Source of the DNA: Prevotella histicola JCM 15637 = DNF00424
GTDB taxonomy: Bacteria > Bacteroidota > Bacteroidia > Bacteroidales > Bacteroidaceae
DNA: 64,000 nucleotides
Direction: 5' to 3'
NCBI RefSeq assembly: GCF_000613925.1
Contig: NZ_BAJX01000001.1
Location: forward strand, 248,001 to 312,000
Shown: positions 58,572 to 61,949 of the stretch, one piece after another
How the letters are laid out: every line of letters starts with the position of its first letter
Position numbering within the stretch: position 1 is the first letter of the stretch
Notes under the pieces: model-generated
Database searches by the model: none
Told to the model about the DNA's origin: nothing
Seen by the model: the letters and a program-made list of their open reading frames with translations, nothing else
Translations under genes and position numbers: made by a program

Positions 58572-59273
58572 CTATACTAAGTCCTCATAAGCTTGGTTCA
58601 TCTCGTTCATAAGACTTTCGAAATTATCAGAATTTAAAGAGACTTTCCTGAACATCATTTCCAGATTATCACCAGAAAAGTTGACTGGAGTCTCATGTAA
58701 CAATGTCACCATACCAGAAAGCATCAAGCGATATATTGTAGTTTGACGCAGATTGTTAATCTCTGTTTGAGCTTGTGTTATCCCCAACGCATAGGCTTGC
58801 ATCTGAACTCGCACTATTGAACGAATAGCCAAAGGGACAGGTATACTATCATCAGCCAAAAGAGTTGGACAATCATCAAAAAAATCCTCAACAGATTGCA
58901 GATGTCCATTAAGTAGTTCATAAACCTGTTTCTGATATTCTGATGTCACGAATTCATACAACTCTTTAGTCTTGCAGGCATAACGTAACAATATCTTAGA
59001 AGGAGTTGCCTCCGAGAAATGTCGCCGTCTCATATCTTCAGTAACAGCATCTATATCAGAGTAATTCAAACGGACAAGGATGGGGAAAAGCACAGATACA
59101 AAATTAGTTGCCAATTTATCAAAGCTAGCAACCAACAGCTTTTTATAAACACACGCTTCTAAACGAGACTTCTGTGGGAAAATTGCATCAGCTTGACCCG
59201 AAAAAAAAGCATGAAAGTAGCCTCTGACCATAGCAGAGACTACCCTTGAACGATTTATATTTGAAATCTTCAT
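58572..59273 (-). CDS. protein of unknown function
   Basis: 233 residues, mostly helical, no signal peptide. A repeated pattern of alternating Leu and charged residues, no motif I recognise. It follows the Gly/Ser-rich lipoprotein gene by 6 bp, so the two are co-transcribed. Confidence 0.7.
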   Translation of the reverse strand: MKISNINRSRVVSAMVRGYFHAFFSGQADAIFPQKSRLEACVYKKLLVASFDKLATNFVSVLFPILVRLNYSDIDAVTEDMRRRHFSEATPSKILLRYACKTKELYEFVTSEYQKQVYELLNGHLQSVEDFFDDCPTLLADDSIPVPLAIRSIVRVQMQAYALGITQAQTEINNLRQTTIYRLMLSGMVTLLHETPVNFSGDNLEMMFRKVSLNSDNFESLMNEMNQAYEDLV

Positions 59274-61653: not shown

Positions 61654-61697
61654 TAAAAAAAAAGAAGGAGCATACCTTCTTACATAAGACATGCTCC
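61654..61697 (-). terminator. terminator of the small peptide gene
   Basis: GGAGCAT and ATGCTCC arms (61667-61673, 61691-61697); the minus strand then has TTC and about nine T. An overlapping hairpin AAGAAGG/CCTTCTT is also possible. Confidence 0.8.
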
Positions 61698-61737
61698 CTC
61701 TAGATAATAAATGAAATAAGAATGTAAAATCTGATAA

Positions 61738-61851
61738 TTAATTATACCATATTTCACCTCCTAATAATTGCTCATCTGAATCATTCCCTTGATTACTTTG
61801 ATTTTCATACTCAAAGTCTTCAATAATCTCTAAGGTTTTAGTCTCTTTCAT
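61738..61851 (-). CDS. 37-residue peptide with Gly-Gly motif
   Basis: Acidic precursor-like peptide (MKETKTLEIIEDFEYENQ to start, ending DEQLLGGEIWYN). The leader is rich in Glu and Asp. LLGG is followed by only five residues, EIWYN. A GGAGG ribosome site lies 8 nt before the ATG, unusual in Bacteroidetes, where such sites are rare. It has its own promoter (61918-61949) and terminator. The double-Gly pattern resembles peptides cut by C39 peptidase transporters, but the leader lacks the classical hydrophobic spacing, and no transporter is in the window. The function is unknown. Confidence 0.75.
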   Translation of the reverse strand: MKETKTLEIIEDFEYENQSNQGNDSDEQLLGGEIWYN

Positions 61852-61917
61852 ATTAATAACCTCCAGTTAATTAGATTAAATTTTAAATAACAACTCTTGT
61901 TTGTTAAATGACTATGG

Positions 61918-61949
61918 CAAAGATAAAAAATAAATACAATAAAAGCAAG
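61918..61949 (-). promoter_or_regulatory. promoter of the small peptide gene
   Basis: Minus strand CTTG (61946-61949), 20 nt, TATCTTTG (61918-61925). Leader about 60 nt. Confidence 0.7.

Follow-up and report, generated by a model that had tools for sequence, protein, structure and literature searches.

In PatS/PatX, Phr and arbitrium AimP, the active part is made up of the last five to six residues of a gene product of 15 to 45 residues, and Phr and AimP have, in addition, secretion signals and a linked receptor. Orphan RiPP precursors are acted on in trans. In radical-SAM precursors such as PqqA, MftA and those of the triceptides, the core is at the C terminus. Pup and UBact are small, acidic, disordered proteins with G-G-E near the C terminus, Pup ending at GGE or GGQ. 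In the leaders of peptides processed by C39 peptidases, the consensus places hydrophobic residues at P4, P7 and P12. Within the Bacteroidales, the double-glycine peptides of C39 peptidase-containing ABC transporters include the bacteroidetocins and other PCAT-linked peptides (PMC10352776).

Here we describe a 37-codon gene on the minus strand (positions 61654-61949 with its promoter and terminator) of a 64,000-nucleotide stretch of the Prevotella histicola JCM 15637 genome (contig NZ_BAJX01000001.1, positions 248,001 to 312,000), referred to as the window. It belongs to an apparently undescribed, stand-alone family of Prevotella-group peptides with the shared tail LGGE-x-WY-x. As in PatS/PatX, Phr and AimP, a short gene product has its candidate active part at the C-terminal end; unlike Phr and AimP, the family has neither a hydrophobic signal (no signal peptide was seen by eye) nor a linked receptor. 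With the RiPP and radical-SAM precursors it shares a length of 30 to 50 residues, a variable front and a short constant end, of which W-Y-N/Q resembles the aromatic-x-polar triceptide core, but there is no maturase nearby, the Tyr can be Phe or His, and 2 of 26 motif-bearing genomes have no match to the SPASM profile, which is not exhaustive. Like Pup and UBact, the peptides are small, acidic and probably disordered with G-G-E near the C terminus, whereas three more residues follow GGE than in Pup, and no Pup match was found in Pfam. The short leader, the Gly-Gly before a short end and the Bacteroidales host recall the C39-exported peptides of PMC10352776; unlike those, the family has no linked transporter and only five residues after GG, does not show the leader pattern, and occurs in genomes without C39 (6 of 25). 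The elements of the transcript in the window are as follows.

61946..61948, minus strand: -33-like TTG of the promoter, read from the sequence, with 20 nt between TTG and the -7 element
61918..61925, minus strand: -7 element TATCTTTG, Bacteroidetes type, read from the sequence
61867..61880, minus strand: 5'-untranslated TTTAATCTAATTAA, a near-palindromic stretch common to the close group of relatives, from alignment
61860..61864, minus strand: GGAGG ribosome-binding site, 8 nt before the ATG, present in 8/8 of the close group
61738..61851, minus strand: 37-codon frame MKETKTLEIIEDFEYENQSNQGNDSDEQLLGGEIWYN plus TAA, from translation, relatives and selection
61741..61764, minus strand: codons of the shared eight-residue tail LGGEIWYN, from pattern scans
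61655..61701, minus strand: intrinsic terminator, a 16-pair hairpin and nine T, from a sequence scan and reading

A preliminary description of this DNA had proposed a separately transcribed, easily missed peptide gene, and its promoter, GGAGG at 8-nt spacing and hairpin with nine T are indeed at the places claimed on the minus strand. TATCTTTG is a -7 element of the Bacteroidetes type; in the eight aligned close-group genes this position reads TATCTTTG, TATATTTG or ACATTTG. The CTTG/TTG stretch of the -33 region is found in most of these genes, and the untranslated near-palindrome, in the form TTA(A/G)TCTAATT, in all eight. The terminator hairpin (61701-61663) has 16 pairs and a 7-nt loop and is followed by the nine T. 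Between positions 59000 and 64000, 21 promoter sites were found (18.6 expected) and five terminator-like sites (2.5 expected); by themselves, such elements are therefore weak evidence, and the case rests on conservation. The window had no Rfam family at the gathering threshold, and a tRNA search of it returned none. The peptide has a net charge of -8 and ends, as described earlier, in LLGGEIWYN, the Gly-Gly and aromatic end being the part common to relatives. A single-sequence AlphaFold model was of low confidence (mean pLDDT 62.9, pTM 0.18). The GGAGG conserved throughout the close group contrasts with the natural lack of Shine-Dalgarno sequences in Bacteroidetes reported in PMC6847099.

When protein searches were run against 299 genomes of the genus, five relatives of the same length (L002-L006) were retrieved, 51-62% identical to the window peptide and ending in LGGEIWYN. 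Two further ones came from tail-pattern matches, giving a close group of eight genes including that of the window, each of exactly 37 codons. Of the variable columns, 14/15/32 fall on codon positions 1, 2 and 3 in the entire frame and 1/0/7 in the last eight codons. The pN/pS summed over pairs was 0.22 for the entire frame, 0.02 for its last eight codons and 0.27 for the other codons, ratios that are rough since synonymous sites are near saturation and the pairs are not independent. Two other peptide groups gave 0.30 and 0.55 overall and 0.11 and 0.28 in the tail, and one pair of Segatella copri-type sequences gave 0.09. The search for similar small frames in Prevotella genomes suggested in the preliminary description thus returned relatives in which the frame is kept, with synonymous changes favored over non-synonymous ones. 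We conclude that the 37-codon frame is a real, protein-coding gene under purifying selection across its whole length and, given its own promoter and terminator, that the proposal of a genuine stand-alone gene is well founded.

Weaker matches of the protein search had unrelated-looking fronts and the same C-terminal end. A strict tail pattern (GGE-[I/V/M and similar]-W-Y-[N/Q/K/H]-stop) occurred in 16 of the 299 genus genomes, once in each, and its backward control in none. A slightly looser pattern applied to 301 genomes of the family matched six, all among the 22 of the same genus, and none of the 279 genomes from 29 other genera. In a collection of 84,980 species genomes, 31 stretches matched, which by their titles were 23 Prevotella, Segatella or Hallella, two "uncultured Bacteroidales" and six others. 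Among the culturable species with the motif are P. jejuni, P. veroralis and S. baroniae. The planctomycete and Gemmatimonadetes matches were discarded as distant members, since all five lie antisense to a large open frame; they had no Rfam match. The sixth, in a Rhodobacteraceae MAG (L083:1444-1469), is the only outside match free of such an explanation. A phage, plasmid or viral origin was also rejected, with no tail-pattern match in viral contigs or in plasmid and phage records. A profile built from 27 members matched 33 of the 299 genus genomes at E ≤ 1e-3, with 34 matches. Three of these are broken or incomplete: the tail in G099 has an in-frame insertion, the frame in G103 has an internal stop, and G221:C6 holds only a contig-end piece. 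Four weaker matches (G076, G030, G017 and G084) also have the tail. This patchy presence and the broken copies fit an accessory, signal-like trait. Judged from these scans, the family is restricted to Prevotella-group genomes and defined by its tail.

Counted by distinct sequences of the last 20 residues, the family has 45 intact members, whose N-terminal parts differ widely and whose tail is [LIMV]GGE-hydrophobic-W-[YFH]-x-stop; the constancy of this tail is partly built in, because members were collected with the expression [LMIV]GGE.W[YFH].-stop. The fourth-last residue is I in 20 members, V in 11, L in 10, Y in two, and F and A in one each; the second-last is Y in 40, F in four and H in one; the last is N in 25, Q in eight, E in six, D in three, T in two and L in one. 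The N-terminal parts can hardly be aligned between peptide groups although the tail is common. A loose expression for a candidate aromatic-acidic motif (e.g., IY-x-DY) matched the front part of 41/45, and the window peptide matches it only at EYEN. Comparison of 27 members with reference databases gave nothing convincing in NCBIfam (best E 0.023), Pfam (0.093) or PHROGs (0.053) and no match in PADLOC; a search with solved-structure profiles matched one chain over 13 positions (E 0.0076), which we took as chance. A literature text search for the tail strings returned unrelated clinical titles and no relevant paper, and we found none on such a Prevotella peptide system, which is not proof of its absence from print.

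Every member locus that was read has its own promoter and terminator, and the neighbors are ordinary-looking genes (named by eye) that change between lineages. Among the 42 loci with at least 6 kb of sequence, compared for families within 4 kb, no transporter or maturase family recurred (identities by eye), and few neighbor families spanned more than one peptide group. Two of these are common to S. copri-type and S. baroniae peptide loci, a serB-like gene is near both close-group and RUG143 loci, one LAG-group neighbor has a single further occurrence elsewhere, and the rest are six pairs of single loci. Because of the two shared families and the serB-like gene, we suggest that the S. copri-type and S. 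baroniae peptides, and likewise those of the close group and RUG143, are positional orthologs in which the front was rewritten and the tail kept. Regulatory sequences differed among groups. The close group shares the upstream element GTAAAAAATGTTTAAATAATT, which, allowing up to two mismatches, occurs once per genome, at the peptide, in six of eight genomes, and is found neither in the genome of the window nor in G026. The QYK group has the promoter dyad GAAATRCC-N8-GGTATTTC, present with one mismatch in 9 of 11 genomes; three further sites were detected. Two of these, in G269 and G292 (L237 and L238, near 1501-1524), precede a gene that by eye resembles a cation:amino-acid symporter. Since the backward control also matched in 3 of 11 genomes, this dyad is only a lead.

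That so short a frame might have arisen by chance is virtually excluded: short frames abound, with 64 of 25 codons or more in the final 7 kb of the window, but conservation is codon-structured, the tail is taxon-restricted, and the selection test rules chance out for the close group. We give little credence, too, to a leader peptide or attenuator acting in cis, or to a small RNA in which the frame is incidental. The short length, the hairpin terminator and the untranslated stretches conserved within groups would suit such an element; against it, the gene that follows is often on the opposite strand and is not the same in all lineages, the codon structure of the conservation is that of a protein, and the window lacks an Rfam match at the gathering threshold. 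An RNA signal confined to the tail is unlikely, since third codon positions vary freely, with all third bases (GGA, GGT, GGC and GGG) used in the tail Gly codons across the 45 members. The classical double-glycine route, in which the peptide would be cut and exported in trans by the C39 ABC transporters of the genome, also seems improbable. GG is present in all 45 members, as it must be by their selection, and LLGG-EIWYN in the window peptide had led the preliminary description to propose a cut after Gly-Gly and a look for C39 transporters elsewhere, which located two intact transporter frames, each beside its own GG peptide, among three C39 matches in this genome. C39 (PF03412, E ≤ 1e-3) is, moreover, commoner in motif-bearing genomes, 19/25 versus 12/26 in a comparison set chosen by hand and not random (Fisher p 0.045). 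Despite this mild enrichment, a C39 transporter was discarded as the general partner: PF03412 matches nothing at that threshold in six of the 25 motif-bearing genomes (G045, in one contig; G132, in two contigs; G218; G221; G231; G572), and in a seventh (G146) the match is limited to a 136-codon frame. No peptide group lies beside a transporter, and the C39 leader pattern is missing, with P4, P7 and P12 hydrophobic in 30, 14 and 2 of 45. If the six C39-less genomes express the peptide, C39 as the sole mechanism is refuted. C39 processing may occur in some species and is not required in all. The proposed release of a five-residue peptide may be the work of another protease; C39 as its general agent does not hold.

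The tail is probably recognized by some protein encoded elsewhere in the cell. The reading we lean toward, tentatively and at somewhat short of an even chance, is a trans-acting precursor with an unlinked partner, other than C39, that recognizes and probably processes its tail. The gene would be transcribed alone, with the acidic and probably unstructured N-terminal part acting as a leader or docking arm and [LIMV]GGE-hydrophobic-W-[YFH]-x as the working part that a protein encoded elsewhere would recognize. In its likeliest version, a non-C39 enzyme would modify and/or release either the tail or just the five residues behind GG, and the product would be a small signal or modified peptide, which might be exported. 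It counts against this reading that no neighbor family is common to the peptide groups apart from the positional cases. Nearly as likely is an intracellular small regulatory protein that stays uncut; its tail would bind a housekeeping or genus-specific protein as a short linear motif, and its acidic front would be a tether. The lack of a linked exporter, protease or maturase, the dispensability of C39 and the lack of a signal peptide (by eye) are in keeping with an uncut ligand, as are the hydrophobic residue directly before GG and the fixed distance from W to the C terminus, both partly set by the search expression; patchy presence (33/299 genus genomes, E ≤ 1e-3) and broken copies would be odd for a core regulator, and a compact aromatic end preceded by Gly-Gly is rather what precursors typically have. 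A more specific version of the trans-acting precursor, which we regard as unlikely, is a genus-specific Prevotella signal or ribosomal cofactor-like molecule, in which E-x-W-[Y/F]-x would be modified or released by the unlinked non-C39 enzyme, with IWYN, VWYQ, LWFD and IWYT as lineage-specific tail variants, and would serve the cell itself or be sensed by the population. Should the tail prove to be a signal or a modified peptide, a genus dominant in the mouth, gut and rumen would have a peptide messenger; should it act inside the cell, its constancy beside a rewritten front would still make it a direct bait for the partner. Precursor mining based on clusters would miss genes that, as here, have no cluster.

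A SPASM maturase appears not to be universal as a partner: PF13186 matched in 24/26 motif-bearing (all except G000 and G211) versus 21/26 other genomes with a profile that is not exhaustive, and no SPASM maturase was linked at the peptide loci (identities by eye). Since the profile missed a radical-SAM-like frame in the genome of the window (L076:6009-7367, by eye), its counts are not decisive. For the 27 members, the Pfam matches, taken up to E 10, included no Pup model. A microcin C-like scheme, with an E1-like ThiF that would act on the C-terminal Asn, was rejected because the phylogenetic profile of the enzyme does not fit; the ThiF of this genome was found at ≥50% identity in 7/26 motif-bearing versus 5/26 other genomes, and other ThiF relatives were not separated.

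This ThiF-type enzyme is side by side with a PAS/LuxR-like regulator and a GNAT-like gene (L076:866-3200), and its 95-100% identity in G029 and G163 suggests that it may be mobile. The C39 matches of the same genome lie on three contigs. On C55 (121715-121891; L078:4784-9880) the frame is broken and an RGG peptide is about 5 kb away, and on C41 (L077:5644-12242) a 63-residue VVGG peptide adjoins an intact ABC transporter frame. The other intact C39 ABC transporter is on C45 (L076:5756-13104), together with a YGG peptide, the radical-SAM-like frame and two similar large frames; this region, between integrase-like genes, looks by eye like a RiPP cluster.
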